A DNA stretch of 42,402 nt from Candidatus Abyssobacteria bacterium SURF_5 (GCA_003598085.1 QZKU01000070.1:1-42402); one strand, 5' to 3'; shown: positions 18,618 to 42,199, counted from the first letter of the stretch. The notes: generated from the sequence alone by a model not told the origin. Program-made: numbers and translations.

Positions 18618-18631
18618 GGCAAATCAACACG

Positions 18632-18787: not shown

Positions 18788-18808
18788 CTATCTTCTCCTT
18801 CAACGCCC

Positions 18809-20275: not shown

Positions 20276-20343
20276 ACGTTTATCCTCCCGCTGACCAGTC
20301 AAGACAGCCAATCGCGAAAACTTGACGCTGCTGCTCTTCTGCG

Positions 20344-20388
20344 CGAAGTGAAGAATCTTTTGCCCCTCCCGAAAGCTGCTTCACTTCG
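20344..20388. repeat. inverted repeat upstream of the permease gene
   Basis: CGAAGTGAAG (20344-20353) and CTTCACTTCG (20379-20388) are perfect ten-base complements separated by 25 bases. They stand about 70-110 bases upstream of the permease start and also downstream of the porin terminator. They could be a regulator site or part of the leader. Confidence 0.5.
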
Positions 20389-20474
20389 TCCAGAACGCAA
20401 GAACTTTCGCTGAAAATCTCCAGCGCGTCATCCCTTCTTGCCAAGCTTCATCACGATTGCGGAAAAAGGGCATG

Positions 20475-20504
20475 AGGGGAAGGCAATGTATTTTGCCTCC
20501 CCCT
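20475..20504 (-). terminator. hairpin after the DcaP-like porin gene
   Basis: AGGGGAAGGCAA (20475-20486) pairs with TTGCCTCCCCCT (20493-20504) with one bulged base and a six-base loop. It is 22 bases past the porin stop. On the minus strand a T-run (20466-20462) follows a few bases later, so it fits a transcription terminator of the porin gene. Confidence 0.6.
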
Positions 20505-20526
20505 TTTGCCATGTAGATCGATTAAA

Positions 20527-21966: not shown

Positions 21967-22102
21967 GCGTTCTCCCTTGCGTTCTCTGGTATTCCCCAAA
22001 ACCATGCATGAATTCTACTGCTTGTACTGTGTCACTTCCTCGGGAAATAGGCTTTATCCCCAATGGTCTCGAAGTATCACCCCCCTTTTTGCCGAGCGAA
22101 CT

Positions 22103-23437: not shown

Positions 23438-23574
23438 AATCGCTATGCCCGCACTCGTGTGAGGAACGGCATCTTACCCTTCGGCAAAAAGTATATCAGA
23501 ATTTCCTTTTCTTCTTCTAATTTTTTTTGCTGCGCCAAAATTCAGGCTCGTGGCTGGGGCTGTAAGCTTGTTCG

Positions 23575-24309: not shown

Positions 24310-25087
24310 AGTGATTCGTGCGTCCCAAATACCGTGCGATAACTTCCTCGTTGCGCTGAACGTCCCGCGGCTTGCCCTCGGCAATCTTCGTCCCGAAATC
24401 GAGGACAAGCACATGATCGGAAATCTCCATTACCACCGACATATCGTGCTCGACCAGCATCACAGTGACGCCTGAATCCCTGATCTTGCAGATCAAATTT
24501 GCAATTTGGTCGGTCTCCCGCATGTTCAAGCCGGAAGCCGGTTCATCCAGAAGAAGCAACTTCGGAGACGTCGCGAGCGCACGCGCGAATTCCACCAGGC
24601 GCCGCTTACCAAATGGCAGCGAAGCGGGGGAGGAGTGAGCCTCGGAGCCTAAGCCGACTATCTCCATCTTCTGTAATGCCTCTTCTCGTATGTACTTCTC
24701 CTCCTCAACGGCTTTTCTTCTCCTGAAAGCATTACTGAAGGCGCCGTACCGGGTTCGGCAATGAAAACCCAGCATCACGTTCTCCATGACGCTCATGTTA
24801 TCGAAAATTTCCACGTTCTGAAAAGATCTGGAAACACCCATGCGAGCTATGACGTACGGCTTTTTCCCGCCGATCTCCCTGTCCCCATAAGTGATCCTGC
24901 CGCTACTCGGCGGAAGCAGGCCGGTGAGCAGATTGAACAACGTTGTTTTGCCGGCCCCGTTCGGCCCGATAATCGATTTGATTTGACATTCGCTCACCTC
25001 AAAACTGAGGTCGTTCAAAGCGAGGACTCCGCCGAAGCGCCTGGTCAACCGGTCGACTTTCAGCAGCGCAGAATTCTTTCTTTCCAT
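24287..25087 (-). CDS. livG: branched-chain amino acid ABC transporter ATPase LivG
   Basis: A 266-residue ATPase of the LivG type. Walker A GPNGAGKTT, the LPFGKRRLVEFARAL signature (LivG-typical variant of LSGGQ), Walker B LLLLDEPASGLN and VEHDM are all present. The ATG at 25087 overlaps the livM stop by one base (TGATG). It pairs with LivF as the ATPase heterodimer. Confidence 0.95.
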   Translation of the reverse strand: MERKNSALLKVDRLTRRFGGVLALNDLSFEVSECQIKSIIGPNGAGKTTLFNLLTGLLPPSSGRITYGDREIGGKKPYVIARMGVSRSFQNVEIFDNMSVMENVMLGFHCRTRYGAFSNAFRRRKAVEEEKYIREEALQKMEIVGLGSEAHSSPASLPFGKRRLVEFARALATSPKLLLLDEPASGLNMRETDQIANLICKIRDSGVTVMLVEHDMSVVMEISDHVLVLDFGTKIAEGKPRDVQRNEEVIARYLGRTNHYAENPKS

Positions 25088-26049
25088 CAGCTCGCGCCCT
25101 GCCGGTATAACTGCCGGCTGAATCGCCTCTTGATAATGCTTAGTATCCCCGCCAGTCCTTCCGGAGCAAACATCATGATAATCAGCATCACCGCGCCATA
25201 GATAAGGATGTCGTAGTCGCCGAAGGTGCGAAGATACTCGGGCAGTGTTGCAAGCAGCAGCGCCCCGAGCAAGGCGCCCCATACGTTTGACATCCCTCCC
25301 ACAACGACCATTGTGACAAGCAGAATCGACACGTTGGCATCGAACGTTGTCGGACTGATAAACGTGACATAATGTGCATAGTAACTGCCGGCTATAGAGG
25401 CAATCACGGCGCTGAAGACGAACACCTTCATCTTGATCGAAGCAGTGTCTACCCCCATGGCGTTGGCGGCTGTCTCACTCCCGTGTATCGAGCGCAAGGC
25501 CCTGCCGACCCGCGAATGGATGACATTCAGGATCAAGACCAGTAAAACCACAACGGTCGCCCAGACAAGATAATAAAAATCGATATCACGCTTAAAGACG
25601 AAACCGAAGACCGAAAGCCGGGGAATCTGGCCGAAGCCCGAGGGGCCGCCTGTTAGCTCCACGGCTGAATTGAAGAAGATGTAAACGATCTCACCGAAAC
25701 CAAGGGTCGCCATCGCCAGGTAATGCCCACGCAGCTTCAGGACCGGCACACTGATCAGGAAGGCGAAGATTCCGGTAATAAACATGGCGACCAGGATCCC
25801 GATCCAGGGAGAGAGGCCCACTCGCGCGCTGAGCAGGCTGGAAGCATAGGCGCCTATACCATAAAAGGCCGCATGCCCGAGTGATATCTGGCCCCCATAT
25901 CCCAACAGCAGGCAAAGAGATATCGTCATCATCGAATAGATTCCGACGAATACCAGCATCCCCAGGTAGTAGGGATTCCGCATGACAAGGGGAAGGCCCG
26001 CTACCACCGCAATAAAAAGGACCACTAGGAGATAACTTCGTTTGCCCAC
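25087..26049 (-). CDS. livM: branched-chain amino acid ABC transporter permease LivM
   Basis: A 320-residue inner-membrane permease with about nine to ten helices. The family motif appears as GYGGQISLGHAAFYGIGAY near residue 50 and the coupling segment as ALRSIHGSETAANAMGVD. It starts at a GTG with GGGAG just upstream. LivM and LivH form the membrane channel for the Liv importer. Confidence 0.94.
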   Translation of the reverse strand: MGKRSYLLVVLFIAVVAGLPLVMRNPYYLGMLVFVGIYSMMTISLCLLLGYGGQISLGHAAFYGIGAYASSLLSARVGLSPWIGILVAMFITGIFAFLISVPVLKLRGHYLAMATLGFGEIVYIFFNSAVELTGGPSGFGQIPRLSVFGFVFKRDIDFYYLVWATVVVLLVLILNVIHSRVGRALRSIHGSETAANAMGVDTASIKMKVFVFSAVIASIAGSYYAHYVTFISPTTFDANVSILLVTMVVVGGMSNVWGALLGALLLATLPEYLRTFGDYDILIYGAVMLIIMMFAPEGLAGILSIIKRRFSRQLYRQGAS

Positions 26050-26075
26050 GCTGCTCCCGTTTTCCCGGACACTGC

Positions 26076-26969
26076 CTAAAATTTCTTCAGCCGCTGTGCT
26101 TCCGTATCTCCGAGCAATCCGCTGGGGCGAATAAAAAGCACCGCCAGAAGCACGATCAGCGCAATCGCGTCCTTATAATGGGATGATATGTACCCCGCTC
26201 CCAATGATTCCAATATCCCTATCAGTAGACCGGCCACCACCGCGCCCGGCCCGCTGCCAAGCCCGCCGAGAATGGCCGCACCGAATCCTTTGAGAGCCAG
26301 CATCGCGCCGCGCTGGTAATCCATCAGCACTATGGGAGTAATCACGATTCCCGCAACCGCTCCTATCCCCGCGGAAAGACCAAAGGAAATGGTCACCATC
26401 TGCTTCACACTTATGCCGACAAGCCGAGCCGCCGCGGGGTTATGAGCGCACGCCCGCATTGCCTTCCCCATAAGCGTTCGATTGAAAAACCACGCAAGCC
26501 CCAACACCACTGCAGCAAGGCTGCCCAACACCCACAGCGATTGCGGAAGAATCGTCGCCCCGAGCACGGCGATCGGCGTCTCACCCGAGAAATGGGGAAG
26601 ATAACGCGCCTCTTTTCCCCATGCGAACATCGCTATTCCTTTTATTAAAATCGAGCCCGCAATGGTTATCATGATCAATACGAGAACCGACGGAGCTTTT
26701 AACGGATGAATTGCCACGCGCTCGAATCCAACCCCGACCAAAACAACAAGCACGACCGCGATCGGGAAAGCGATTGGCAAGGGCAGCTTCCACACGGTGG
26801 TCAAAGTAACCATAAACATCCCGCCCAGCATTACGAACTCGCCCTGCGCAAAATTAATGATACCCGTGCAGTTATAGATGATGTTGAAACCGAGCGCCAC
26901 CATTGCATAAATGCTGCCGATGGCGACGCCCGTGAATAGATACTGAAGAGTCCTTGAGAGAACGTCCAT
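26076..26969 (-). CDS. livH: branched-chain amino acid ABC transporter permease LivH
   Basis: A 297-residue inner-membrane permease. The N-terminus (GSIYAMVALGFNIIYNCTGIINFAQGEFVMLGG, in pieces) is the LivH signature, and KAMRACAHNPAAARLVGI is the cytoplasmic coupling loop. I start at the ATG at 26969; a GTG codon precedes it directly. A ten-base palindrome ATCACGTGAT overlaps the start. It lies downstream of livK, with a hairpin in between. Confidence 0.94.
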   Translation of the reverse strand: MDVLSRTLQYLFTGVAIGSIYAMVALGFNIIYNCTGIINFAQGEFVMLGGMFMVTLTTVWKLPLPIAFPIAVVLVVLVGVGFERVAIHPLKAPSVLVLIMITIAGSILIKGIAMFAWGKEARYLPHFSGETPIAVLGATILPQSLWVLGSLAAVVLGLAWFFNRTLMGKAMRACAHNPAAARLVGISVKQMVTISFGLSAGIGAVAGIVITPIVLMDYQRGAMLALKGFGAAILGGLGSGPGAVVAGLLIGILESLGAGYISSHYKDAIALIVLLAVLFIRPSGLLGDTEAQRLKKF

Positions 26970-27011
26970 CACGTGATCCTGTTATCCGGAAGCGCCCGCC
27001 CGTATGAATGG

Positions 27012-27037
27012 CAGGGGCACGGCTGCCCGTGCCCCTG
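27012..27037 (-). terminator. strong hairpin between livK and livH
   Basis: CAGGGGCACGG (27012-27022) and CCGTGCCCCTG (27027-27037) form a perfect 11-bp stem with a four-base loop. There is no T-tract. Placed after the binding-protein gene and before the permease genes, it suits partial termination or protection of the livK message, giving more binding protein than membrane parts. Confidence 0.6.
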
Positions 27038-27091
27038 GTCTGTCAGCAGTGAGAATTCAGTTATGCGCTTCCCGGTGTTGATGCGCGGGAA

Positions 27092-28237
27092 CTAAATGCC
27101 GAGAGGCATGAACTTGCCCTCTTTTACCGTCATCATCTCGAATGCATTCTTGTCGAGGCCGCAATGATCTTCAGCCGAAAAATTGAAGATCCCGCCGGTG
27201 CCGACGAAGCCTTTCCTGTTCTCAATGTAATCCCGGAGCTTGGCTTTGTCCGGACCGACCGCTTTCAACGCATCAATGACGAGCCATAACGAATCGAACG
27301 CGTGCCCGCCGAATGTGCTTACCTGGTCTTTGTATTTCGCCTCGTACTCCGACTTGTACTTCGCCAGGACCGCCTTTTGGGGTAAATCGTCTTTGAGATG
27401 CTCGACAACCAGAAGCCGCCCCGCAGGAAAAATGATGCCTTCACCCGCAGCACCGCATGCCTCAATGTTTTTCGGATTCCCAAAACCATGGCTCTGGTAA
27501 AGCGGAATCGTCATGCCGAGTTGTCGCACGTTCTTGACGACAACCACTTGGACAGGCCCGACGGACCAATTGATCAAAGCCTGTGCGGGCGTACCTTTAA
27601 TCTTGGTCAATTGCGCAGTCATATCAGTATCCGACGGGGCATAGCTCTCGTCCGCGACAATCTCGATGCCCATAACCGGCGCAAAGGCCTGGAGCTGCGC
27701 TCTGCCGGTCGCCCCAAAAGCGTCCGTGGAGGTAATTATGGCTACTTTCGTGAGCCCTTTGGCTTTCATATGTTCATAAATGCGTACGGCACAGTCACTG
27801 TCTTTCTGAGGAGTCTTGAACACCCATTTGAACACCGGGTTCACAATCGCCTCAGCCGCCGCGCAGGAAATTAATGGCACCCCATATTCCTCGGCAATCG
27901 GCTTGACCGCCATCGTCGTCCCGGTTGTGGTAGGCCCTACAATGGCGACCACATTATCTTTTGCCACCAGCTTCTTAACTGCATTCACCGTGTTCGGCTC
28001 GAGGCCTGCATCATCCTCAACAATTACCTGTATCGGCCTGCCGTTGATGCCGCCCGCCGCGTTCACTTCGGCTTCAATCATCTTCACCGTATTCCGCTCG
28101 GGCTCGCCCAGCCAGGACGCTTTACCGGTAACGGCAAAGACCGCCCCAATCTTAATCGGTTCGGGCGCATCGGCTGCGAATAGGCTCCCGCTCAGTGCAA
28201 GGCACAGAACCAATGCTGCTAGTACAGTCTTTTTCAT
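27092..28237 (-). CDS. livK: periplasmic amino-acid binding protein LivK
   Basis: A 381-residue type I solute-binding protein. It has a signal peptide (MKKTVLAALVLCLALSGSLF, cleaved after FAA) and the fold of the Leu/Ile/Val-binding family: IKIGAVFAVTG at the mature start, DDAGLEPNTVNAVKKLV, VGPTTTGTTMAV and the hinge segments. The ATG at 28237 has GGGAGA upstream. Ligand specificity cannot be read from sequence. Given the flanking PaaK and Ior genes, aromatic amino acids or aryl acids are as likely as Leu, Ile or Val. It is the first Liv gene after the ACT protein. Confidence 0.94.
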   Translation of the reverse strand: MKKTVLAALVLCLALSGSLFAADAPEPIKIGAVFAVTGKASWLGEPERNTVKMIEAEVNAAGGINGRPIQVIVEDDAGLEPNTVNAVKKLVAKDNVVAIVGPTTTGTTMAVKPIAEEYGVPLISCAAAEAIVNPVFKWVFKTPQKDSDCAVRIYEHMKAKGLTKVAIITSTDAFGATGRAQLQAFAPVMGIEIVADESYAPSDTDMTAQLTKIKGTPAQALINWSVGPVQVVVVKNVRQLGMTIPLYQSHGFGNPKNIEACGAAGEGIIFPAGRLLVVEHLKDDLPQKAVLAKYKSEYEAKYKDQVSTFGGHAFDSLWLVIDALKAVGPDKAKLRDYIENRKGFVGTGGIFNFSAEDHCGLDKNAFEMMTVKEGKFMPLGI

Positions 28238-28314
28238 TCTCCCTACCTCCATTATCACGCGTATCCGACAACCAAATGACCCGCCTACTGGGCAGGGCCA
28301 AAACTCGCCGATTC

Positions 28315-28749
28315 CTAGAGAACGCCGTAAACCTCCTTTGAGGATAATAATCTCAATTTCTGATTTTTCAGACTCTCAATCACCTCGTCCGTGTTTTCAA
28401 CCCGGAGAATGATTACCGCCTTGTCGCTCTTCCGCTCGAGCACACTGTACATATATTCGATATTGACGCCGCAACCTTCCATTGTCTTCAGCAAATCCGA
28501 TAGCCCACCCGGGTGATCCGGAACCTCAACTGCAATGACATCGGTCTCCTTGACCGCATGGTTGGCGGCTCGCAGAACGGCGTGCGCTCTCTCCGGGTCC
28601 TCGACCACCATCCGCAGGATGCCGAAGTCCTTGCTGTCTGCAAGGGAGATGGCGCGCAGATTCAGGTTGGCTTTGGTCAATTCGTCCGTTACCATACGCA
28701 CATGCCCGATCTTATTCTCAAGAAAAACTGAAATCTGCTTTACCTTCAT
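28315..28749 (-). CDS. tandem ACT-domain protein
   Basis: A 144-residue protein made of two ACT domains (about 1-70 and 71-140), each with the beta-alpha-beta-beta-alpha-beta pattern. [20 protein letters not shown] and [20 protein letters not shown] mark the ligand-binding turns. ACT domains bind amino acids and act as sensors. Proteins of this type are regularly encoded beside paaK and iorAB in anaerobes, and probably report aromatic amino acid levels. The ATG overlaps the paaK stop (ATGA at 28746-28749), so the two are translated together. No catalytic domain is attached. Confidence 0.92.
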
Positions 28750-30059
28750 CCGGCTATCCCTCCTTCCTTTCGTAAATCTATGACTCGTTTTGCCTTACCC
28801 ATGCTGCGCTCGATGGTCTTCGGCTGGACCAAAGTCACCTTCGCATGAATGCCGAGCATGCTCTGTATCTCGTGCTCTATCTTCTTCTCAATCAGTTGCA
28901 GGTTCTTGATCTCGTCTGAGAAAATCTCCTCACTCACTTCAACTTGCACCTCGAGCGTATCCATCGGTCCGTCTTTTCTCACAATCAATTGGTAATGAGG
29001 TTGGGCCTCATCGAAGCCCACCAGAACATGTTCGATCTGAGATGGAAAGACATTGACGCCCCGGATGATCAGCATATCATCGGTTCGACCCGTCACCCGA
29101 TTCATCCGCACAAGAGTCCGCCCGCATTCGCACGGCTGGTACCGGAGACTGACGATGTCCCGCGTTCTGAATCGTATAACGGGAAAAGCCTGCTTGGTCA
29201 CGCAGGTCAAGACGAGCTCCCCGATCGACCCCTCGGGCAGTACTTTCCCGGTATCGGCGTCGATCACTTCGGGAATGAAATGATCCTCGAAAATATGCAG
29301 GCCGCACCGATGCTGGCACTCTGTCGCAACGCCAGGGCCGATTACCTCAGTGAGCCCGTAGATGTCCATCGCGGTAATGCGAAGCCGTTCTTCGATTTCC
29401 GAGCGCATCGTGTCCGACCAGGGCTCGGCGCCAAACACGCCCACCCGAAGCTTCAGCCGGCTCATATCGATGTTCATTTCCTCGGCGACTTCGGCAATCT
29501 GCAGCGAGTATGACGGAGTGCATGCAAGAACCGTCACCCCAAAATCTTCCATGACCATCAACTGCCTCTTTGTATTGCCGCCCGATATGGGAATGACCGT
29601 CGCCCCGACTTTCTCAGCTCCGTAATGGATGCCCAATCCGCCCGTAAACAGGCCGTACCCGTAGCTGTTCTGCACTACGTCATTCGCAGTCACATCACCC
29701 GCCGAAAGCGTGCGCGCCATCAACTCGGCCCATAGATTCAAATCCGCCTTCGTATAACCGGCCACAACCGGCTTCCCGGTCGTGCCCGAGGAAGAATGTA
29801 TCCGCACCACGTCTTTCAGCGGAGTAGCGAAAAGGCCAAATGGATACGTCTCTCGCAATTCATGCTTCGTAATGAATGGAAGCTTCTGAAGATCTTCGAG
29901 AGTCTTGATGTCCGAGGGGCTTAGCCCCAAATCGTCAAGCTTCTTGCGAAAGTAGGGAACATTCTTATGAACGCGCCGAATTACCCGTTTCAGGCGCGTC
30001 AGCTGCAATTCCCGAAGCTGTTCTCTCGGCATGCATTCATGTTTCTCATCCCAAATCAT
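28746..30059 (-). CDS. paaK: phenylacetate-CoA ligase
   Basis: A 437-residue enzyme joining phenylacetate (or indole- or hydroxyphenyl-acetate) to CoA at the cost of ATP to AMP. All core motifs are intact: the P-loop SSGTTGKP at about 90-97, the [17 protein letters not shown] segment, FRTRDIVSL, the hinge [20 protein letters not shown], and the C-terminal [13 protein letters not shown] with the adenylation lysine. I prefer the ATG at 30059 ([15 protein letters not shown], the usual family start); a GTG at 30068 is possible. It heads a probable operon paaK-ACT-livKHMGF-paaK-like. A thioesterase gene is divergent. Confidence 0.95.
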
Positions 30060-30397
30060 CTTGACCACTTCTCCTCATCCAAAAGAGTTCCCCAATAGCG
30101 CCTGCAGAAAAAGTAGGATACAAGTTGCGTCTGTCATGTGCTTTGCGAACGCGCCTCGAAAGCTGCACCTCTTGGTAGGGGTTATACCAGGGATAAAGGA
30201 GCATGATACAGAACATGATGATCCCCTCTACATTTGCAGCCGCGGCAGTATATCATGCCCCGCAAAAAGAAGTCAATAAAGGGGCGCCAAAAGAAGGTGC
30301 TTCCAAATGCTTCCGCACGTCCCTTTGACTGCGGTGGACGAGGCGAGTATTATAGGAGCCATTATTATCGGCAAAGAAAATCTCCAGGAGGCCCGGA
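30060..30397. other. divergent intergenic region between paaK and the thioesterase
   Basis: No gene is seen in these 338 bases. They hold the plus-strand promoter at 30325-30353 and must contain the minus-strand promoter of the paaK-liv operon. A candidate -10 on the minus strand is the GGTATAACC segment near 30180-30190, and ATCATG repeats flank TTCTGT near 30200-30220 and may be a regulator site. Confidence 0.45.
30325..30353 (+). promoter_or_regulatory. promoter of the PaaI-type thioesterase gene
   Basis: TTGACT (30325-30330), a 17-base spacer and TATTAT (30348-30353) lie 45 bases before the ATG. CAGGAGG forms the ribosome site between them. Confidence 0.65.
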
Positions 30398-32918: not shown

Positions 32919-33587
32919 CTACTGCATAGTCCGCAGCGAAGATACCATCCTCAGAGCCTCCTTCAAGGCATTGGAAGCGTTATCGGCAGTCGCATCCGCA
33001 CCGAATTTGGATACGATCTCCTGAGTGACCGGGGCGCCGCCGATCATGATTCTCACGTTTGGATTCCGCTCGCGGATCATTTTGATCACCCGCTCCATCC
33101 CGAGCATCGATGTGGTCATCATCGCCGAGAGGCAAACCAGCGCTGCATTCGTCTTTAACTGCTCCTCGACGAACTTCTCGAGCTCGACGTCCTTACCCAG
33201 GTCATGAACCTCAAAACCGGCCACTTCAAACATCATCTTGACCAGATTCTTCCCGATGTCATGCACGTCGCCCTGAACCGTTCCAATTACGACAACGCCT
33301 TTTGACTTGGCCTTATCTTCAATCTTCACATGGGGCCGAAGAATATCGAGGCCGGCATACAGGGCATCGGCGCAAAGGAGGAGTTCGGGGACGAAATACT
33401 CCTCCTCTTCCCATAGCCTGCCGGCCTCTTCCATTCCTTTGGCCAGACCGTTAATAATTGCGTCATACGCATCCAGATTTGCGGCAAGAACCTCGTTCGC
33501 GGCAGCGACGACTTCTTCTTCCTCGAATTTCCATACACCGTCAGCAAGTCTCTTCAGCAGTTCTTCGCGCTTGGCTTCATCCGCCAT
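32919..33587 (-). CDS. corrinoid (B12-binding) methyl-carrier protein
   Basis: A 222-residue protein of the MtaC/MtbC/MttC type. A helical cap domain (about 1-90) is followed by a Rossmann-like B12 domain. The cobalt-ligand motif is D107-x-H109-x-x-G112 (DVHDIGKN), with H109 as lower axial ligand. The later SAMMTTSMLGM and MIGGAPVT segments contact the nucleotide tail. The protein carries a methyl group on cobalt between a substrate methyltransferase and an acceptor methyltransferase. It is the last gene of a run of closely spaced minus-strand genes that contains both kinds of methyltransferase and the reactivator. The true methyl donor is unknown. Confidence 0.95.
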   Translation of the reverse strand: MADEAKREELLKRLADGVWKFEEEEVVAAANEVLAANLDAYDAIINGLAKGMEEAGRLWEEEEYFVPELLLCADALYAGLDILRPHVKIEDKAKSKGVVVIGTVQGDVHDIGKNLVKMMFEVAGFEVHDLGKDVELEKFVEEQLKTNAALVCLSAMMTTSMLGMERVIKMIRERNPNVRIMIGGAPVTQEIVSKFGADATADNASNALKEALRMVSSLRTMQ

Positions 33588-33605
33588 AACTAGATTCCTT
33601 CCTTT

Positions 33606-34646
33606 TCACTTCCGCTCTCGTCGACCGGCGGCGACGGCCGCCATCAGCGCTTCCATATTCTCCCGCGGAGCGGTGGGCCAGATATCGCAGCCGGGCCAGA
33701 CAGCATCCACCCCATCTTCAATACAGTGAGCAACAGCGCGCCTGACGTCCTGAGGCGTCCCCCGCACCAGCACGTTATATGGATCAAAATTGCCGAGGAC
33801 AACGGGAGCTTTCCCGATGCTCTCGCGCGTCTGGCGCAGATCGTTCTTCTGATCGACGCTCAGCGCAGACGCACCGCACCCGTTCATTGAATCAATGATT
33901 CCGTTTGATTTCCCGCAGATGTGGAGAACGAGCGGACCCGCCGATTTCCTGAAAATATCCTTTAGATGCGGCTCGACAAGACTTCGAAAAAGAGTCGGCC
34001 GCAGCACGTCCGAGCATGCCCCCATTTCCCGAATCGTTATATAATCCGCACCCGCCGCAAAATATGATTTCGCCAACTCAACGATCAGCGATGAATAAAT
34101 CCCAAGGATCTCCGAGACCTCCTCCGGCTTCTTCAGGCACAGCTTGAGCAGGTGATCCAGTTCCATCGTCTGGCCTGCTACGGTGAACGGGCCCATGATG
34201 TAGGTTCCAATCGGAATTTCCCCGCCGACATCGCTCTTGAGCAGACTCAGCGCCTGTCTCACCATCGGCACTCGCCCAGCGTTGGCAAGATCGGATGGAA
34301 TCCGGATTCCGGCAGCCGACGATATCGTCTTTTCCTTGACCGTCGGATACAGTATCTCCTGCGGGTCCACTTCCGTATAAAAATTGATCGGACAACCCAG
34401 CAGTTCCGCCTCGATTGCAACATCGAACGGAACAACCGCAGACTGGAATCCGAACAGCCGGAACGAAGTCGCCGCCAGCTTCGCCATTTTGCCGGCGTCG
34501 GTATGCGCCTGGGCAAAACGTATTCCCGTTGCCTTCATCCCCTCAGTCGTAACATTCCCCATTCCGCTGAAACACAAAAACTCGCTGTCGCGCTTCCCCT
34601 GTAAAAGGTTAAGCGCCTTCTGCCGTATATTTTGTTGCGAAGCCAC
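33606..34646 (-). CDS. UroD-family corrinoid methyltransferase, copy 1
   Basis: A 346-residue TIM-barrel protein of the uroporphyrinogen decarboxylase superfamily. It is not the haem enzyme: it has the zinc-thiol motif of MtaA/MtbA-type methyltransferases, H242-x-C244 (HICG) and a distant C320 (GCDIWP). Such enzymes move methyl groups to or from a corrinoid protein with zinc activating a thiol or the substrate. It lies 18 bases before the carrier gene and six after the mtrH-like gene, so all are co-transcribed. A second copy is at 37557-38639, and the two probably act at different steps or on different substrates. Confidence 0.93.
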   Translation of the reverse strand: MASQQNIRQKALNLLQGKRDSEFLCFSGMGNVTTEGMKATGIRFAQAHTDAGKMAKLAATSFRLFGFQSAVVPFDVAIEAELLGCPINFYTEVDPQEILYPTVKEKTISSAAGIRIPSDLANAGRVPMVRQALSLLKSDVGGEIPIGTYIMGPFTVAGQTMELDHLLKLCLKKPEEVSEILGIYSSLIVELAKSYFAAGADYITIREMGACSDVLRPTLFRSLVEPHLKDIFRKSAGPLVLHICGKSNGIIDSMNGCGASALSVDQKNDLRQTRESIGKAPVVLGNFDPYNVLVRGTPQDVRRAVAHCIEDGVDAVWPGCDIWPTAPRENMEALMAAVAAGRRERK

Positions 34647-34652
34647 GTGATG

Positions 34653-35615
34653 CTACTCCTTCACTTGTTTCTGCGGCCGCTCAAGTTGATCGACAAATTC
34701 CGGGAATAGACGCCGCAACGGGTGAAATTCGGCCGCCGATAATTTCCGGGAATCGGAAAAGGTGTAAAGCGCCTTTATCGAATCGGCTACTGCGGCCGCC
34801 GCGAATGCCCGTTCCGTCCCGGACATCGGGCCGTAGAAAAGGAAATCGCTCCACACAGCCGCGATCGCATGAGCGGCGGCGTCAGCGCCCGCAAATATCT
34901 CGCGCGAGCCTCCCGCGCGAATCTGCTTCCATGTATACGTGCCGTTTGCGGGAGCGCAGCCGACTGGCAGCCCGAACTTCTGCTTGATTTCAACCCCAGC
35001 CCGAAGAGAGAACGCCATCGCCGCCACATTCATGACCGTGGTGTCAATGAGGATGCTGGAGAAGCATCCTCTCTCGATCACGGGCAACATCGCTTCAAGC
35101 GATCTTATCCTGCCGCTGGAGAATTTGTCGGCTTCATCAAACACGCCGACTATGACATGCTTCACCCCGATCTCGGCAATCTCTTGCACCTCACGCTCCA
35201 GATCCGGACTCCACGGGTTGAGGCTGTTGTAAATGAGCCTGTCAAGGATATCAATTGCCCCCGCTCTTCTTGCAGCCTCCATGCGAACATCAACTTTCCA
35301 TGCGTCAATACAAAGGGGGGCCGGTGTCTCCTGCGCCAGAAATTCAAGATATGCGTCAAATTCGGCCACGCCGTTTCCTACAACATCGATACAGGCCGGG
35401 ATGGATGTCTTCGAAGATAATTCCCGCAGCTTCTGCAGATAAGCCCGAGCGGCGTCTTTGTCGAATGACGCCGTTTTCCTGCTGGCGATCAGCCTGTCGC
35501 CCTTGTGAAACATCGAGCCGATGAGCAGGACGGGATTCGTTCCCGGGCGGCCGCCTACTCGTATGCCTCCAATGTCGCAGACTCTCTGTCCCGCATCAAG
35601 ACCGAAAGGATTCAT
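34653..35615 (-). CDS. MtrH-type methyltransferase
   Basis: A 320-residue protein of the MtrH family, named after subunit H of the methanogen tetrahydromethanopterin S-methyltransferase. Typical segments are the N-terminal CDIGGIRVGGRPGTNPVL, GSMFHKGDRL, then CIDAWKVDVRMEAARRAG and FGLPVGCAPANGTYTWK. In bacteria these proteins transfer methyl groups from a methyl-corrinoid protein to tetrahydrofolate. The start at 35615 (ATG) is preferred to the TTG six bases earlier. It would be the exit step of this methyl-transfer chain, feeding the methyl branch of C1 metabolism. Gaps to both neighbours are under ten bases. Confidence 0.93.
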   Translation of the reverse strand: MNPFGLDAGQRVCDIGGIRVGGRPGTNPVLLIGSMFHKGDRLIASRKTASFDKDAARAYLQKLRELSSKTSIPACIDVVGNGVAEFDAYLEFLAQETPAPLCIDAWKVDVRMEAARRAGAIDILDRLIYNSLNPWSPDLEREVQEIAEIGVKHVIVGVFDEADKFSSGRIRSLEAMLPVIERGCFSSILIDTTVMNVAAMAFSLRAGVEIKQKFGLPVGCAPANGTYTWKQIRAGGSREIFAGADAAAHAIAAVWSDFLFYGPMSGTERAFAAAAVADSIKALYTFSDSRKLSAAEFHPLRRLFPEFVDQLERPQKQVKE

Positions 35616-35622
35616 GTTCAAA

Positions 35623-37536
35623 TCACTCCGTCGGCAAAAGCTCTTTCAGATTTGGAAAGGCATCATGCATGTGGGGGAAATGCATCGCCTCTACAAATTC
35701 CCGCTCGAAATCCTTCTCCAGAGTCAATTCAACATATTCCACGCGACAGGCCTGCTCAGCGGCCTCTTTCCTTTTTCCGATATCCAGCAGCGCCATCCGC
35801 GCGCCGTCGCCGGCTGCGTTGCCGACCGCGATCACGTTCTCAATCGGACAGTCGGGAAACATACCCATCAGCATCGCGCACGTCCGGTCGATATAGCTCC
35901 CGAATGCGCCCGCCAATACCACCCGATCGACGCTCTGAATCCCGAGGCGCTTCATCAGAATTTTTGAGCCGGCGTATATCGCCCCCTTCGCAAGCTGAAC
36001 CGCGCGAACGTCTCCGGCCGTGATCGTGATGTTCTTCCCGATCGAAGTTTTCTCCTTCGGCACAAGGACGAATTCTCTGGATTTGCCATCGACCACAATC
36101 CGGGGCGAATTGATGCTCTTGTTGAATCGGCCGCTCTTCTCGACGATGCCGGCCCTGAACATCTCCGCAATGGCGTCTATTATACCCGACCCGCAAATGC
36201 CTCGCGCATGCTCACCATTATCACCCGCAATGACCCGGTATTCGACATCCAGCCCCCCCGGGGCAATGCGCACCCGCTCAATCGCGCCAGGCGCCGCCCG
36301 CATTCCATGCTTGATGTGGGCGCCCTCGAGCGCCGGTCCCGTCGCGCATGAGGCAGCCAAGATCTTATGGCGATTGCCAACAAGAATCTCTCCATTGGTG
36401 CCGATATCTATTATCAGTTGCATCTCATCTTTATCATAGGGGGCTTCCGCGATGAGAACGCCGACGTTATCCGCGCCAACGAATCCGGCCTCCACCGGCA
36501 GAACGTGCACATTGGCCGCTCCATTGATCCCGATTTGCAATTCGGCTGCCTTCAGGTCGATAGCGGACTGCACCGCCGGAGCAAATGGGGAAACGCCGAC
36601 GCCCACCGGAGAGATGTTCAAGAGGATGTGATGCATCACGGTATTGCCCACAATGCACATCTCGAGAATGTCATCCGGCTGAATTGAAGCCTTCGTGCAT
36701 ACGCTGCCAACTATCTGGTTGAGAGATCCTATGATCTCCCGGTGCAGTTCGCTCAGTCCACCGTCCGCAGTCATGATATAGGTAACGCGCGACATGACGT
36801 CTTCACCATAAGCGACCTGCGGATTCATGAGCGAATGGACCGCGGCAACGTCTCCATTCGAGAGATCGCACAGATAGCCGGCAACCGTCGTCGTGCCAAT
36901 ATCCACCGCCAGACCGAAACATTTCATCGAGGAACCCGGAACCGCCCCCAGAAGTTCTTTTCCCATCCAGACCGCAACCGTCACCTCCCAGTTCCCCTCA
37001 CGCAACACATGCGGGAGCCGCGCCATGAAAATTCTTCCCGCTCGCAGACCATGCAGGCGATGCTGCGATTCCAGCCCTTTCAGCAGGCGCTCGTAGTCGC
37101 TCAGTGGGTCGGCAAGCGTGGGTTTTTCCAGTCTGACATGGTAGGTCTTGACCGCCGGATTCAACGCTATCTTCCGAAGTGTCACTTCTTTCCGAACCAC
37201 CTGCTGTCCACCACGGCTCTCCTCGGGAACATGTATCAGCAGATCCCCCTGAATATGGGCCGCGCACGCAAGCCGATATCCTTTGGCGATTTCGTCCGGC
37301 GACAATACTTTCTTTTCTTCTTCCGTAAGCGGCGTGAGGTGATCGTACCGCGATTCAATGCCGTGGCGCTCGAAAAAGCCCTCCTGCACGCGCACCTTGC
37401 ATTTGCCGCACGTTTTCTTGCCTCCGCAAATGGATTCTATATCCACCCCCAGTTCGCGCGATACCTCCAGCAGGTTCTTCCCTCGCTCGATTTGCCCGCG
37501 CCGGCCGGACGGCTGAAATATCACTTGCTTGTGCAC
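35623..37536 (-). CDS. RACo-type corrinoid protein reactivator
   Basis: A 637-residue ATP-dependent reductive activator of corrinoid proteins. It has an N-terminal [2Fe-2S] ferredoxin domain with cysteines 37, 43, 46 and 91 (CGGKKTCGKC pattern). A linker leads to an ASKHA ATPase core from about residue 205 (GLAVDIGTTTVAGYL), with LIIDIGTNGEI and GNAAGDGARMALLD as further phosphate-binding motifs. It returns inactive cob(II)alamin to the cob(I)alamin state, a repair step needed whenever corrinoid proteins cycle. The length and domain order match RACo-like proteins. Only 7 bases separate it from the mtrH-like gene. Confidence 0.95.
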   Translation of the reverse strand: MHKQVIFQPSGRRGQIERGKNLLEVSRELGVDIESICGGKKTCGKCKVRVQEGFFERHGIESRYDHLTPLTEEEKKVLSPDEIAKGYRLACAAHIQGDLLIHVPEESRGGQQVVRKEVTLRKIALNPAVKTYHVRLEKPTLADPLSDYERLLKGLESQHRLHGLRAGRIFMARLPHVLREGNWEVTVAVWMGKELLGAVPGSSMKCFGLAVDIGTTTVAGYLCDLSNGDVAAVHSLMNPQVAYGEDVMSRVTYIMTADGGLSELHREIIGSLNQIVGSVCTKASIQPDDILEMCIVGNTVMHHILLNISPVGVGVSPFAPAVQSAIDLKAAELQIGINGAANVHVLPVEAGFVGADNVGVLIAEAPYDKDEMQLIIDIGTNGEILVGNRHKILAASCATGPALEGAHIKHGMRAAPGAIERVRIAPGGLDVEYRVIAGDNGEHARGICGSGIIDAIAEMFRAGIVEKSGRFNKSINSPRIVVDGKSREFVLVPKEKTSIGKNITITAGDVRAVQLAKGAIYAGSKILMKRLGIQSVDRVVLAGAFGSYIDRTCAMLMGMFPDCPIENVIAVGNAAGDGARMALLDIGKRKEAAEQACRVEYVELTLEKDFEREFVEAMHFPHMHDAFPNLKELLPTE

Positions 37537-37556
37537 GTAATCCCCTTGCTCCTCCT

Positions 37557-38639
37557 TTAAGCCCGCTGCATTGTACGATATTCCTTCACGGCATTGATCA
37601 TTGCTTGAACATTCTCAAGAGGCGTTCCGACAGGAAGATCACAGCCGCTGAGAAGACCAAAATTGGGTACTCCCTCCATTGCTGTCAGCATCTCCATCAC
37701 CACAGCCCGCACTTCCTCCGGCTTCTTCAACATAAGAACTTCCACCGGCGCAATGTTGCCAAGGATAATGATATCCGGCGGCACCTTATCCTTGATCTTC
37801 ATCAGATCGGTCGGCGAATCGACGCTGATACCAGTAACCCCCGTCTTGCACATCAGCTCGACCAGATGCCCGGCGCGACCACATATGTGAATGGTAGAGG
37901 GCACAGGTGTGCTTTTTGTGAGACGTTGAAGATAGGGAAGGACCATGCTCGCAAACGCCTTCGCCGAAAGCAGACTGCACGTCGGCTCCGCAATCCCGAT
38001 CACGTCGGCGCCGGCCTTGATCAACTCCATGTAATACCGTTGGACCACCTGGAGCGAATACTCCATCACCTCATGAACGAGCGGCGGCTCCTTGATGATC
38101 TTTCGCGTTATGATATCCACTCCCATCAGCTCGGCGGCAAGCGTGAATGGACCGGCCGCCGCCGCCGTTTTCGGAAGAGTGAAACGTCTCGTGAACAGCT
38201 TCGTGGCGTCAATGAATACCTTCAATCGCCCGTCTTTGTACGGGTCCGGAATCCGCAGATTCTTCATGTCCTCATGCGTCTGGATCGGATGAACCTTCAC
38301 CGAGGGCAGCGCGTTCTCAGGGATGGTAACTTCACAGCCGCAGGCCTCGGCCTCCGCCGCAAGATCGGGAAATGTGCACATGACGAAATCAGGCTTGAAC
38401 GTAGTCACATACTTCTCTATCGTCCCGAACATCACGTGCCCATCCGTCAGGTTCTGCTTGACCGTCGTCCCCGTCAGCGGCGCAAGATAAGCCCCCATAA
38501 TCGGTGAACCGATCCTGCGACCTGAGCCTGCCGCCATCTGCGCAAAGCTTTTGCCGGAGGTCGCCCGCCGCAAGAACAGCCCCACCGGCCTCACCGCCTT
38601 ATGTCTTCCCACCCAGTTGATGACGTCGATTGTGCTCAT
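37557..38639 (-). CDS. UroD-family corrinoid methyltransferase, copy 2
   Basis: A 360-residue paralogue of the 33606-34646 protein. Zinc ligands are H251-x-C253 (HICGRAGH) and C333 (SGCDLP). Its N-terminal 60 residues (RPVGLFLRRATSGKSFAQM, GAYLAPLTGT) differ from copy 1, and so does the pocket sequence, suggesting another substrate or acceptor. It is 20 bases from the RACo gene and appears to open the compact five-gene unit, with a possible promoter at 38806-38835. One of the two copies may be the substrate-specific enzyme. Confidence 0.92.
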   Translation of the reverse strand: MSTIDVINWVGRHKAVRPVGLFLRRATSGKSFAQMAAGSGRRIGSPIMGAYLAPLTGTTVKQNLTDGHVMFGTIEKYVTTFKPDFVMCTFPDLAAEAEACGCEVTIPENALPSVKVHPIQTHEDMKNLRIPDPYKDGRLKVFIDATKLFTRRFTLPKTAAAAGPFTLAAELMGVDIITRKIIKEPPLVHEVMEYSLQVVQRYYMELIKAGADVIGIAEPTCSLLSAKAFASMVLPYLQRLTKSTPVPSTIHICGRAGHLVELMCKTGVTGISVDSPTDLMKIKDKVPPDIIILGNIAPVEVLMLKKPEEVRAVVMEMLTAMEGVPNFGLLSGCDLPVGTPLENVQAMINAVKEYRTMQRA

Positions 38640-38805
38640 TGTAGTGGCTCTCCTTGTGGGGAGGGATAATCAAGCCGCTCCCGGCCAAAGATATCCATCT
38701 TGTGAGTAATTTCGTGCGGCCCCCCGTTGGGAAGCCACGCCCTGATCATGTTAACAAAATCACAGCGAAAACTCAAATGGAATTCAGAAACTTAACCAGC
38801 TTCAT

Positions 38806-38835
38806 TTATTGTCCTTGAGCAACCATAATTGTCAA
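38806..38835 (-). promoter_or_regulatory. possible promoter of the methyltransferase operon
   Basis: On the minus strand a perfect TTGACA (38830-38835) is followed after 18 bases by CAATAA (38806-38811). It lies between the 599-residue gene and the second UroD-type gene, in a 224-base gap. The -10 element is poor, so read-through from the TetR promoter may also matter. Confidence 0.35.
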
Positions 38836-38863
38836 GAATCTGGACCTATGTCGGAATTTGCCG

Positions 38864-40663
38864 TTACGTCCCCGGACTTTTATCACCATCCAGTTGCGCC
38901 GTCATCCGTTGCGCGAGAAGAGCCACCTTCTCGGCCCGCTCGCGTGCTCCTGGAATCGCAGTCGAAATAAAGCTTCCGGCCTCGGCAAGCCTCGCAGCTT
39001 CCGCAGGCGAATGCATTCCCATCGCGGCCGCGACCGCGGCCGGAACCGTGATGTTGAGGATGATGTTCGATCCCATAAGTATCTCGTTCAGGGGAACTGC
39101 CGCAAAAGGGATGCAGGCCAAAATCATGCCATCCTGTTCCTGAATCGCCTTGGGGATAACCCTGTGCGCGAGTCCCTCGAAACGGATGGTCTCTTCTCCG
39201 AGAGTTACCTCGACGTCGGCGTCAACGTTGAAACTGAGATACCGCTTCGCAATATCTTCGCTTCGACGGGCGCCGCAGGCGATTTTGGTGAATTTGATGC
39301 CGACCTCTATTCCATTGGTACGGAGAAAATATCGGCTCCCGCCTTTCTCGATGGTCTCCTGACGTTGCTCATCGAAGGTCTTGACGACCGATTCGAGCGT
39401 GGCCCCTTTGGAGAGCATGGCGTATGCGCTTACAGCTCTTCGACGGACGGCCTCGATACGGACTCCTTCGGTGCCGCGGATAATGGAGCGGGTTATCGGC
39501 CCGCGCCGCAGTTGTTCGGCCTTGCGGGCCATCACGTTGGCCGAGACTTTTGCGGTCTCCGGATCCATGAAAAACTCATCGCGCACATCGTGCACGGTCG
39601 TCGCCGTTTTCTCCTCGTCGCCTTCATGGTTTATAAAGGCGAGCAAGGCGATGATTGCGTCGGTGGTGACACGGCTGAGCACACTCGCGACCGGGCCCGA
39701 CCCTCCTCCGCACCCGATCATGCCGCCTTCCTTGAAGCAGCCGAGGATATCGTCGAAGGTAATCATCGCCATGACGGTCGGCGCGCCGATATCCTTAAGC
39801 ATCAGCCCCAATTCGCCAACCACTTTAGCGGTGTCGACCACTCGGTCAACTCCTTTGATGGTCAGCGTCTCCGGCAGCCCGGTCGCAGAGACAGCGCCCT
39901 GCCCGGCCAGGTGCGTTGTGTTGATCTTGCGGTAGTCGCCATATTCGGCCGCGACGCGGGCGTCGGGATGAACGATCTCAAGGATTGCGGCTGCGCCGAA
40001 AATAGCGGACATGATGCGGTTCGGCTGCATGCCGGCCCCGGCGAACGCCTTCATCATGGCCTCCGCGCCAATGCGGGCGCCCTCTTTGGCCAGGGCAGGA
40101 TACACAAGATCTTCGCCAAGAGCGGAATGACCGTAAATAGGGCCGCGCGCCACGCCATTGGGCACAAGCGAGCCATCGATGGGGCTTAACTTCTTTTCTT
40201 CCATGGCGCGATAAATGGCCTGGACCGCGGGGAATCCGGAAATCTTATTATTCAATTTCGGAGTCGGCACCGACATTACGCCGCAGCGGTCTGCGCCGGC
40301 GATCATACGCGCCATCGCACCCAATTTTCGATTGCCTGCGGCCACACCCGCTTGAACATTCGCGCCGGCGAAATAAAGCAGAGTCGCGCTCAGTAAAGCG
40401 GCGTTAGCCGAATCCGCCCCGGCCGCGCGAGCGGCGGCGATACATTTCGCCAGGACATCATCGAGTGGTATCTCAGGCGCATTATCCGCAGTAACTTTCA
40501 ATGTCTTGCCTCGCAGGAATTCCTCGGCGATCACATTGGCGATCGAAAAGACCGCCAGAGTGAGCATCCCATGGCCCTTGGACAGGGCCTCCAACCGGTC
40601 ACACGTCATCAGGTCAACATCGGCTATCGAAGCCGTCATAGCGGCGAGAACTTCTGGTTGCAT
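38864..40663 (-). CDS. uncharacterised 599-residue protein
   Basis: I do not recognise this protein. It has 599 residues, no signal peptide and no transmembrane helix, and is rich in Ala and Gly in long stretches. Striking blocks are a glycine loop GCGGGSGP (about 317-324), NNKISGFPAV and the early ATLLYFAGANVQAGVAAGNRK, and a conserved-looking VHDVRDEFFMDPE. Cysteines occur near C127 (DRCG), near 309 and 318 (DILGC and IGC) and in KIACG. The pattern suggests a large soluble enzyme with nucleotide or cofactor binding. GGAAGGAA before the ATG at 40663 decides the start; a longer frame to 40702 has none. It lies between a LarC-like gene and the methyltransferase genes on the same strand, so a role in the same pathway is likely but unproven. 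Confidence 0.8.
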   Translation of the reverse strand: MQPEVLAAMTASIADVDLMTCDRLEALSKGHGMLTLAVFSIANVIAEEFLRGKTLKVTADNAPEIPLDDVLAKCIAAARAAGADSANAALLSATLLYFAGANVQAGVAAGNRKLGAMARMIAGADRCGVMSVPTPKLNNKISGFPAVQAIYRAMEEKKLSPIDGSLVPNGVARGPIYGHSALGEDLVYPALAKEGARIGAEAMMKAFAGAGMQPNRIMSAIFGAAAILEIVHPDARVAAEYGDYRKINTTHLAGQGAVSATGLPETLTIKGVDRVVDTAKVVGELGLMLKDIGAPTVMAMITFDDILGCFKEGGMIGCGGGSGPVASVLSRVTTDAIIALLAFINHEGDEEKTATTVHDVRDEFFMDPETAKVSANVMARKAEQLRRGPITRSIIRGTEGVRIEAVRRRAVSAYAMLSKGATLESVVKTFDEQRQETIEKGGSRYFLRTNGIEVGIKFTKIACGARRSEDIAKRYLSFNVDADVEVTLGEETIRFEGLAHRVIPKAIQEQDGMILACIPFAAVPLNEILMGSNIILNITVPAAVAAAMGMHSPAEAARLAEAGSFISTAIPGARERAEKVALLAQRMTAQLDGDKSPGT

Positions 40664-40703
40664 ATCCGAATTCCTTCCCCCCAAAGGAGCGAACCAAGCC
40701 AAA

Positions 40704-40763
40704 GGGGACTGTCACAAGAATTACGGGCCGTGTCTTTTCGGCCATAGATTCGGGACTGTCCCC
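40704..40763. repeat. REP-like element with GGGGACTGTC repeats
   Basis: GGGGACTGTC (40704-40713) and GGGACTGTCCCC (40752-40763) flank a small hairpin, GGCCG (40726-40730) with CGGCC (40739-40743). The second copy is itself nearly palindromic. The layout is like REP-type palindromes mobilised by RAYT transposases; no transposase gene is present in the window. It separates the LarC-like gene from the 599-residue gene. Confidence 0.5.
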
Positions 40764-40778
40764 AAGCAAAAACAAAGC

Positions 40779-41283
40779 CTAAAATTGAATCGTAAAAAAA
40801 CCATTCTCATTTCTTGCGGCGTGTGCTTCCAGCAGCGCGCGCATCTTTGCCAATGAAACATTCAAACCGAATTCTTCTTTCACCCGTTCGCGAGCGCGTA
40901 CGACGTCCGCGTGCTCGGCTCGCGCGTTACCTCCGTCTCCTTCCCGCGCCTTGAAACGAATGTCGAGCGCAATCGACAAATCGCCCTTCCGAATGGTCGC
41001 CTCATACGCATTTGAGCGTTTGCGGCGTGCAGTAATGACATGTCTGTATCTGATGATAGCCGAAGATGGAAAATTCTTCGGCCAAAAAGCTCGCCCAATC
41101 GGCCTCCTTGGCGGGGTCGATATCGAGCAAGAGAAGACAGCCCGAGCGGCTTTTCTTCGTAATTCCCGGCAGGACGTACACATTTTCGGCCCCTCGGGCG
41201 ATGATCTGGTCGATGGCGTAGCCCAACTCCTCGCCGGTGAGGTGGTCGACCTGTGCCAAAATGAGCATCCCGTTCTTCTTCAT
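40779..41283 (-). CDS. LarC C-terminal-like nickel-insertion protein, split by a +1 frame change
   Basis: The first frame (41283-41002) gives 93 residues beginning MKKNGMLILAQVDHLTGEEL and containing GYAIDQIIARGAENVYVLPG and TKKSRSGCLLLL, close to the C-terminal domain of LarC (consensus IDDMT-E-LG, MKKGRPG). It then meets TGA at 41002-41004. The plus-one frame is open throughout and continues with EATIRKGDLSIALDIRFKAR and a final amphipathic helix, to a stop at 40779. Joined, about 167 residues form one complete domain. LarC in Lactobacillus is known to be made by programmed frameshifting; a similar event, a sequencing error or a recent pseudogene are all possible here. The large N-terminal LarC domain is absent. 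The start overlaps the TetR stop (ATGA). Confidence 0.7.
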
Positions 41284-41951
41284 GCGTTCGCTCCGGGCCG
41301 CTCCGCCGGCGAGAGAATTTCCTCGAGCCAGCCGAGCATCCTGTCAACATATTGCGTGTGGCTCTTCCTCTTTCCGGTGAATGGCACGCCAAAGTATTCC
41401 TCCAGCCGAAGGGAATGATAGGTCGAGACGAACCCCGAGTAGAGGAAGAAGCAAAGGCCGCCCACAATGTGAGCGATCATGGGGACATCGATATCCGAAC
41501 GAACTTCGCCCCGCTCGATGCCCTGGGTGAGAATGGCGCGAAAGTACTTGACCGAGGTCGCCTCGATGCGCCGCGTGACCTTTCGCGCGAAAGAGTCCAT
41601 GTCCGACGTTCCAAGCTGGAGCAGGATACGGAAGGTGTCGTTGCGGGCGTCCGCGTCGGTCTGCGTGTTCTCCATGAGCATGCGTATCTTCCCGAGGCAC
41701 GAGGCGTCGCTCGCGACCACGGAGCGCATGTACTCATCCTTGCCCTCGACCTGGCGCATGATGACGGCCTCGTAAAGGTCTGACTTGTTCTTGAAATATT
41801 TGTACAGCGCGCCGTTGCTGATGCCCGCGCGCTCGCAGATGTCGTTGATGTTCGCCTTATGATAACCATTCGCGGCGAATTCCACCTGCGCCGCCCGCAA
41901 CACGCGGTCCTGCTTCTCCTTTGAGATATTCGAGAAAGTTTTCGAAGCCAT
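41280..41951 (-). CDS. TetR-family transcriptional regulator
   Basis: A 223-residue repressor. Residues 10-60 form the TetR DNA-binding domain (RVLRAAQVEFAANGYHKANI, then ERAGISNGALYKYFKNKSDL). The rest is the helical ligand and dimer domain. The ATG at 41951 is used. It is followed by the LarC-like gene with a four-base overlap, and then by the 599-residue gene and the corrinoid genes, all on one strand, so it is likely to control this set in response to a ligand. It almost certainly represses itself through the dyad at 42020-42041. Confidence 0.93.
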   Translation of the reverse strand: MASKTFSNISKEKQDRVLRAAQVEFAANGYHKANINDICERAGISNGALYKYFKNKSDLYEAVIMRQVEGKDEYMRSVVASDASCLGKIRMLMENTQTDADARNDTFRILLQLGTSDMDSFARKVTRRIEATSVKYFRAILTQGIERGEVRSDIDVPMIAHIVGGLCFFLYSGFVSTYHSLRLEEYFGVPFTGKRKSHTQYVDRMLGWLEEILSPAERPGANA

Positions 41952-42199
41952 TTGTTGTTGACCTCGCAAAAGATACCCCTCTCAAAAAATCCGCCGCTTT
42001 CAGGGGGCCGGTCAATCCGAGAGAGTGAGCGTTCACTCTCTTATATCATCCAAGTGTCTTTTTGTCAAGCATCGTTCAAAGAACGGTTTTTTCGAGGAAT
42101 ACCGGTAGAACGGATGGAGATGGAAAGTGGCGGCCATAGCAAGAGAGATCGCAAGACCCAGCTTCGCTATGCCTCCTGGTACATCGGAACAATTAGTGC
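41952..42199. other. intergenic region upstream of the TetR gene
   Basis: No supported gene lies here. A 94-codon frame on the plus strand (41952-42236) has no ribosome site and low-quality composition. The stretch holds the TetR promoter and operator. Together with the partial frame after it, the DNA becomes more AT-rich towards the window edge. Confidence 0.5.
42020..42068 (-). promoter_or_regulatory. TetR promoter and operator
   Basis: Minus strand TTGACA (42063-42068), a 17-base spacer and TATAAG (42040-42045) form a strong promoter. Overlapping the -10 box and the start region is a dyad with nine-base arms, AGAGAGTGA (42020-42028) and TCACTCTCT (42033-42041), around GCGT. This size and shape is typical of a TetR-family operator, so self-repression is expected. 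Confidence 0.75.

Follow-up and report, generated by a model that had tools for sequence, protein, structure and literature searches.

The nickel-pincer nucleotide (NPN) is made by LarB, LarE and LarC, the last of which uses cytidine triphosphate (CTP), and about 15% of surveyed genomes make it without encoding LarA, its only known user (PMC11796402). NPN proteins of a fold distinct from that of LarA have been predicted, and their existence is an acknowledged open question (PMC11796402). Among corrinoid-dependent systems, those for aromatic O-demethylation and for chloromethane are known to have substrate methyltransferases of the UroD superfamily (PMC8630106, PMC13222342), and sets of MtaA-like proteins have been proposed to act in methyl-sulfur or selenium metabolism (PMC10418091). 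The Abyssubacteria have been described as having the full Wood-Ljungdahl pathway along with several corrinoid methyltransferases (PMC6121073). The window considered here, namely the whole stretch of 42,402 nucleotides (nt) that was analysed, is one entire contig of the 5.1-Mb genome of the deep-subsurface bacterium Candidatus Abyssobacteria bacterium SURF_5 (GCA_003598085.1 QZKU01000070.1:1-42402). At 32919-41951 it carries an eight-gene block in which a corrinoid methyl-transfer cassette is joined by genes for a 599-residue protein of an undescribed family (hereafter the 599 protein) and a LarC2-like partner. The 599 protein is a testable candidate for the long-sought second user of NPN beside LarA.

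An eight-gene block in three genera

The block reads along the minus strand throughout, its eight genes coming in the order TetR-family regulator, LarC2-like gene, 599 gene, UroD-type methyltransferase (UroD1), RACo-type activase, MtrH-family methyltransferase, second UroD-type methyltransferase (UroD2) and corrinoid protein. This agrees with the original prediction, made from the sequence of the window alone, as to the genes, their place and their common strand. The family matches are strong (E values of 1e-62 to URO-D for both UroDs, 8e-50 to MtrH, 9e-95 to RACo and 1e-26 to B12-binding), so the identities are not due to chance. The mostly tiny gaps it described are likewise present, most measuring 2-20 nt, with the exceptions of 223 nt between the 599 gene and UroD1 (38640-38863, minus) and 115 nt between the LarC2-like and 599 genes (40664-40778, minus). 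The larger gap contains one promoter-like match (38835-38808), and the number of such matches across the region is not above chance. No RNA elements were found in the region with Rfam.

Of the genomes compared, the closest to that of the window are SURF_17 (Candidatus Abyssobacteria) and one from groundwater that was deposited as Poribacteria. All eight genes recur in the same order in the three Abyssubacteria genera compared, all open frames of the window having been set against the loci of the two other genera. The similarity starts exactly at the TetR gene and stops exactly at the corrinoid protein gene, and the flanks, compared up to 10 kb either side of the 599 gene, show no similarity between the three genera. 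Protein identity across the genera is 60-85%, lowest for MtrH (60%) and highest for the corrinoid protein (85%), with the 599 protein (80-82%) among the best conserved; only the part of the LarC2-like gene past a frameshift falls below this range (36-39%). Judged by this conservation in three genera without similar flanks, the eight genes are a real unit, and the first three do extend the methyl-transfer locus as had been supposed. Because each of the three loci has a gap of 223-575 nt between the 599 gene and UroD1, two promoters in the block are possible.

The 599 family, its LarC2-like partner and the proposed nickel-pincer link

The 599 gene (38864..40663, minus) has an ATG start, and a 612-residue version starting with TTG is also open. 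Membership of a known family was rejected, as Pfam, NCBIfam and PDB sequence profiles gave no match even at E 1-10. A distant relationship to LarA was also rejected, with no Lar_N domain (PF09861) found in Pfam up to E 10 and a probability of 0.2% when the 599 and LarA profiles were compared by hhalign. The literature searched contains no description of the family, nor of a LarC2-like protein with corrinoid genes, and no phage homologs were found in the phage collection or IMG/VR. Fourteen loci were found in four lineages, namely in the three Abyssubacteria, on five rhizobial plasmids, in a second phylum (G387 alone among eight genomes) and in a third (five genomes among 24). When 386 genomes from across the domain were searched with a profile, the family turned up only in the three Abyssubacteria, the rest having come from targeted searches. 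The rhizobial-plasmid proteins show 45-46% identity over 95% of the protein. Across 12 aligned members 38 polar residues are invariant, including K113, K136, K140, K290, K381, H179, H232, E184 and D185.

A stand-alone LarC2-like gene adjoins the 599 gene in 12 of the 14 loci; of the other two, L108 is cut by a contig end and L104 has none in reach. The partner precedes the 599 gene in the Abyssubacteria and follows it elsewhere, so their adjacency has either survived rearrangement or arisen twice. By gene neighbourhood, the two form a conserved pair in four lineages. The other matches of the LarC2-like protein in the 386 genomes all lie inside longer, LarC-sized frames.

In anaerobes the pair, by its position in these genomes, sits beside a UroD methyltransferase and usually has a corrinoid cassette as well. 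A UroD gene directly adjoins the 599 gene in seven of the nine non-rhizobial loci, four of them in two other phyla, and five of the seven also carry nearby corrinoid cassettes. On the same contig as the 599 gene, and about 7 kb from it, L089 has a cassette of MtrH, UroD2, corrinoid protein and RACo; in L105 the distance is about 6.5 kb and the cassette consists of two UroDs, corrinoid protein and RACo. The 599-adjacent UroDs outside the Abyssubacteria form a clade of their own (support 95/96), distinct from the cassette UroDs, its grouping with Abyssubacteria UroD1 being uncertain owing to long branches. A neighbourhood survey of this kind had been proposed with the original prediction, and in other phyla, too, the 599 and LarC-like genes are found again and again with UroD/corrinoid clusters. 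The same corrinoid cassette is also found without a 599 gene in G093 (51-59% identity) and G287, which marks the cassette as a common module and the 599 pair as an addition. The pair is the novel part of the locus, the corrinoid half being of a known kind. A third genomic setting is seen in L106 and L107, both from the third phylum, where the pair has no UroD or corrinoid gene within stretches of 17 kb.

The partner had been described as LarC-like, which is correct only for the C-terminal LarC2 domain, and its frame is not intact in the window. The first part (41002..41283, minus; 93 amino acids), whose ATG overlaps the TetR stop codon, matches Ni_insertion (4.3e-12, LarC2 domain only) and NF052512 (2e-12) and is 69-71% identical to its relatives. 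The second part (40779..41024, minus) lies in another frame, was found with a LarC2-like profile and shows 36-39% identity to the C-terminal portion of the gene in the relatives that have it intact. DNA alignment places a 1-nt insertion in the window gene, near 41025, causing the frameshift, and the gene is uninterrupted in both Abyssubacteria relatives (169 and 167 amino acids). Since the relatives are intact and the site lies within the domain rather than at its border, a mutation or assembly error is likelier than a programmed frameshift, which is disfavoured.

LarC itself is a CTP-dependent nickel insertase (PF01969, NF052512, 6bwo), and its LarC2 part has been crystallised as a separate domain. 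The partner is homologous to this C-terminal domain and keeps the GE and KKxR motifs, but it is a separate gene without LarC1, and the idea that it is a complete nickel insertase was rejected for this reason. The PF01969 match of the stand-alone protein covers only about positions 242-366 of 375. The 50-bit cut-off of NF052512 (LarC2 domain) is exceeded in Rhizobium tropici (55.2) and G387 (53.4), while SURF_17 (49.9) and the broken window gene (47.2) lie just below it and G410 reaches 40.9. A full LarC is present besides the LarC2-like protein, elsewhere in the genome in Abyssubacteria and next in the operon in rhizobia.

The link to NPN comes from the five rhizobial plasmids, where the 599 and LarC2-like genes stand directly upstream of LarC-LarE-LarB, accompanied in four of the five by a NixA-type nickel transporter. 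On other alphaproteobacterial plasmids this is the place of LarA, the superfamily of NPN-dependent 2-hydroxy-acid racemases and epimerases (PF09861; PMC7583248, PMC11770544). LarA directly precedes LarC-LarE-LarB in Rhodovastum, a LarA-domain gene directly precedes LarC in Sulfitobacter and Pseudosulfitobacter, and LarA lies ahead of LarC-LarE-LarB with two genes between on plasmids of R. leguminosarum and Phyllobacterium. No LarA was found on the five 599 plasmids, the search in rhizobia having covered plasmids only. In the plasmid collection the 599 and stand-alone LarC2-like genes occur in the same five records, disjoint from the 15 records found by a LarA query. As the pair precedes LarC-LarE-LarB on plasmids without LarA, it holds LarA's place in the rhizobial NPN operon. 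The 599 protein and LarA differ in size (599 against about 430 residues) and have no sequence relation, and the 599 operons are always without LarA.

LarB, LarE and LarC thus accompany the pair in the rhizobial operons and are present in the window genome, a full LarC and LarE being encoded in all three Abyssubacteria genomes and LarB in that of the window; LarB is also present in all eight genomes of the second phylum. The original prediction had suggested that the pathway needs a nickel cofactor, and the rhizobial operons support this, the best inference from gene context being NPN made by LarB, LarC and LarE. In R. leguminosarum and Phyllobacterium (L080, L081) the two genes separating LarA from LarC-LarE-LarB are a GntR regulator and an NAD(P)-dependent oxidoreductase, and LarA comes after a branched-chain-type ABC transporter, which hints at a specific imported 2-hydroxy-acid substrate. 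Reading a substrate of the 599 protein from its own rhizobial flanks (a PatB-type C-S lyase, RidA and an amino-acid ABC transporter) was tried and rejected, as these are absent from Rhizobium sp. CB3090.

Proposed function and rival explanations

The explanation of the whole locus that is preferred here, with a probability of roughly 0.55, is a TetR-regulated cassette in which an NPN module works with a corrinoid methyl-transfer chain. Genomic context points to the 599 protein as an NPN enzyme and to the LarC2-like protein as its dedicated loader or finisher. The 599 protein would bind NPN made by LarB, LarE and LarC encoded elsewhere in the genome, and the LarC2-like protein would load, protect or finish the cofactor on it, perhaps in a CTP-dependent step. 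The enzyme may then perform hydride-type chemistry on a methylated substrate or its demethylated product, a natural guess being that it epimerises or oxidises one of them. From the families named, UroD1 would transfer a methyl group to Co(I) of the corrinoid protein as substrate methyltransferase (MT1), and MtrH would pass it on to tetrahydrofolate as the second methyltransferase (MT2), while RACo would re-reduce oxidised cobalt with ATP and UroD2 may serve as a second cognate methyltransferase. The methyl group could then enter the Wood-Ljungdahl pathway reported for Abyssubacteria (PMC6121073). In rhizobia the same pair would work without a corrinoid chain nearby. The wider proposal, that the family as a whole is an NPN enzyme unrelated to LarA with its own LarC2-like partner, which in anaerobes works with a dedicated UroD and links NPN chemistry to corrinoid methyl transfer, is given even odds.

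A number of observations weigh against this explanation. Two AlphaFold predictions made with three sequences were poor (pLDDT, the per-residue confidence score, of 36 and 41), and Foldseek with the second, low-confidence model (pLDDT 41) returned nothing at E below 1, so no fold is assigned to the 599 protein. LarE has a stop codon in R. tropici CIAT 899 plasmid b (L055 18598-19404) and is annotated as two pieces in the CCGE531 plasmid, though it is intact in CCGE532, CB3090 and Ciceribacter. The restriction of the LarA search to plasmids counts here also, as does the frameshift in the window's own LarC2-like gene. Several LarA homologs in Abyssubacteria imply other NPN users there. In G408 and G410 the 599 and LarC2-like genes have no UroD nearby, and in G411, which has a 599 gene and a UroD, no LarC2-like gene was found.

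The LarA homologs also bear on a different role for the pair, that of making, storing or delivering an NPN variant to other enzymes such as these, the 599 protein then not being an enzyme of one-carbon metabolism. By analogy with molybdopterin cytosine dinucleotide, such a variant might be a cytidylylated NPN. Cofactor handling of this kind would suit a constant partner that is a maturase domain rather than a substrate enzyme, and the pairs of L106 and L107, which have no catabolic partner. It seems unlikely, however, as the rhizobial pair sits in LarA's slot on plasmids with no LarA to serve and a dedicated UroD clade is repeatedly adjacent in other phyla, while a length of 599 residues with dozens of invariant polar positions fits an enzyme at least as well.

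If the link to NPN were incidental, the pair could bind another metal or nucleotide, with the LarC2-like protein as a CTP- or metal-binding subunit, for example an accessory protein for activation or regulation of the corrinoid system. The modest LarC2-like scores (40-55 bits against a cut-off of 50), the missing LarC1 part and the lack of an NPN biosynthesis gene next to the anaerobe loci are in keeping with this. The rhizobial operons make it a doubtful, quite unlikely proposition, since they are otherwise of nickel-pincer type (LarC, LarE and LarB in all, NixA in four of the five) and carry the pair in place of LarA. Nor can a corrinoid role account for the rhizobial loci, whose annotation shows no corrinoid genes in the vicinity. 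The block might also consist of two unrelated neighbours, TetR-LarC2-599 and a corrinoid cassette whose UroD/MtrH demethylase would be of the usual sort, acting on a methoxy or methyl-sulfur compound, as the 223-575 nt gap between the halves and the cassettes without a 599 gene in G093 and G287 would allow. This is improbable given that the halves stay together in three genera without shared flanks and that a UroD adjoins the 599 gene in four further loci of two other phyla.

Should the NPN enzyme proposal be true, NPN chemistry would be widened beyond 2-hydroxy-acid isomerisation and connected to B12-dependent one-carbon metabolism in subsurface bacteria. The field expects a still unidentified NPN protein of a different fold (PMC11796402), for which the 599 family is a concrete candidate. 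It is an expressible one, because in rhizobia a single operon encodes the candidate together with its partner and the entire pathway to the cofactor, and the proposal is directly testable because NPN proteins other than LarA are an acknowledged question.

Methyl-transfer genes, regulator and neighbouring features

As assigned by family, the locus encodes a complete methyl-transfer chain. UroD1 (37557..38639, minus; 360 amino acids), the candidate MT1, has the HxC...GCD motifs, matches URO-D at 3.3e-62 and is 77-78% identical in the relatives. The original prediction noted the absence of an MttB-type enzyme and considered the methyl donor open. Indeed, no MttB/MtgB-type substrate methyltransferase was matched among the block genes, but the conclusion is not supported, because the substrate methyltransferases of many corrinoid systems belong to the UroD superfamily (MtvB, OdmB, MtoB and CdmB; PMC8630106, PMC13222342), and UroD1 is a natural candidate. 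The RACo-type ATP-dependent corrinoid reductive activase (35623..37536, minus; 637 amino acids) has an N-terminal 2Fe-2S domain (RACo_C_ter 8.6e-95, Raco_middle 6.6e-53, Fer2 1.3e-8). It is followed by the MtrH-family protein (34653..35621, minus; 322 amino acids; MtrH 7.6e-50, NF002142 291.6 bits with a cut-off of 287), a candidate methylcorrinoid:tetrahydrofolate methyltransferase (MT2). UroD2 (33606..34646, minus; 346 amino acids) is MtaA-like (URO-D 1.7e-62, NF004889 258 bits with a cut-off of 244), has the HxC and GCD metal-site motifs and is 51% identical to the cassette UroD of L073. The corrinoid (B12) carrier protein (32919..33587, minus; 222 amino acids) matches B12-binding (1.5e-26) and B12-binding_2 (9.5e-20) and is 84-85% identical in both relatives and 59% identical to its counterpart in a cassette from another phylum.

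A UroD-superfamily methyltransferase, corrinoid protein, tetrahydrofolate methyltransferase and activase thus stand in one cluster of the Mto/Mtv/Cdm type. With the Mto/Mtv/Odm aromatic O-demethylases and the Cdm chloromethane system (PMC8630106, PMC13222342), the locus shares a UroD-type MT1, a corrinoid protein and a RACo-type activase, and with Mto also an MtrH-type MT2. It differs in that its UroDs are MtaA/CmuA-like, and the portions of those papers drawn on here make no mention of a 599 and LarC2-like module. The type 1 mlp gene clusters (PMC10418091) likewise have several MtaA-like UroDs, a corrinoid protein and a reductive activase, but lack the tetrahydrofolate methyltransferase that is represented here by MtrH, and neither nickel nor LarC is mentioned for them.

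In SURF_17 an open reading frame of 152 amino acids (L004, 13473-13931), with a likeness by eye to DUF559-type nucleases, lies between UroD1 and RACo and is absent from the other two genera. In the second phylum a 220-residue iron-sulfur protein with weak QueG/reductive-dehalogenase similarity is encoded between the corrinoid protein and RACo (L089 6897-7559, L073 10676-11341) and could be an electron donor for the activase.

The TetR-family regulator (41280..41951, minus; 223-229 amino acids; TetR_N 1.2e-14), which would regulate the cassette, is 69-70% identical in the relatives. Just upstream of its gene lies a perfect inverted repeat, AGAGAGTGA-N4-TCACTCTCT (42020..42041), a candidate TetR operator. 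L005 has a similar element ahead of its TetR gene, and L004 shows a partial match. An imperfect palindrome, GGGGACAGTCCC, lies in the gap between the LarC2-like and 599 genes (40752-40763) with TGACAGTCCCC nearby; it occurs once in the window and was not found in the locus of any relative. Further along the minus strand, the neighbours at 16644-30068 form an apparent set for aromatic or branched-chain acid degradation, comprising the alpha subunit of an indolepyruvate ferredoxin oxidoreductase, two PaaK-like CoA ligases and an ABC transporter of the branched-chain amino-acid type.

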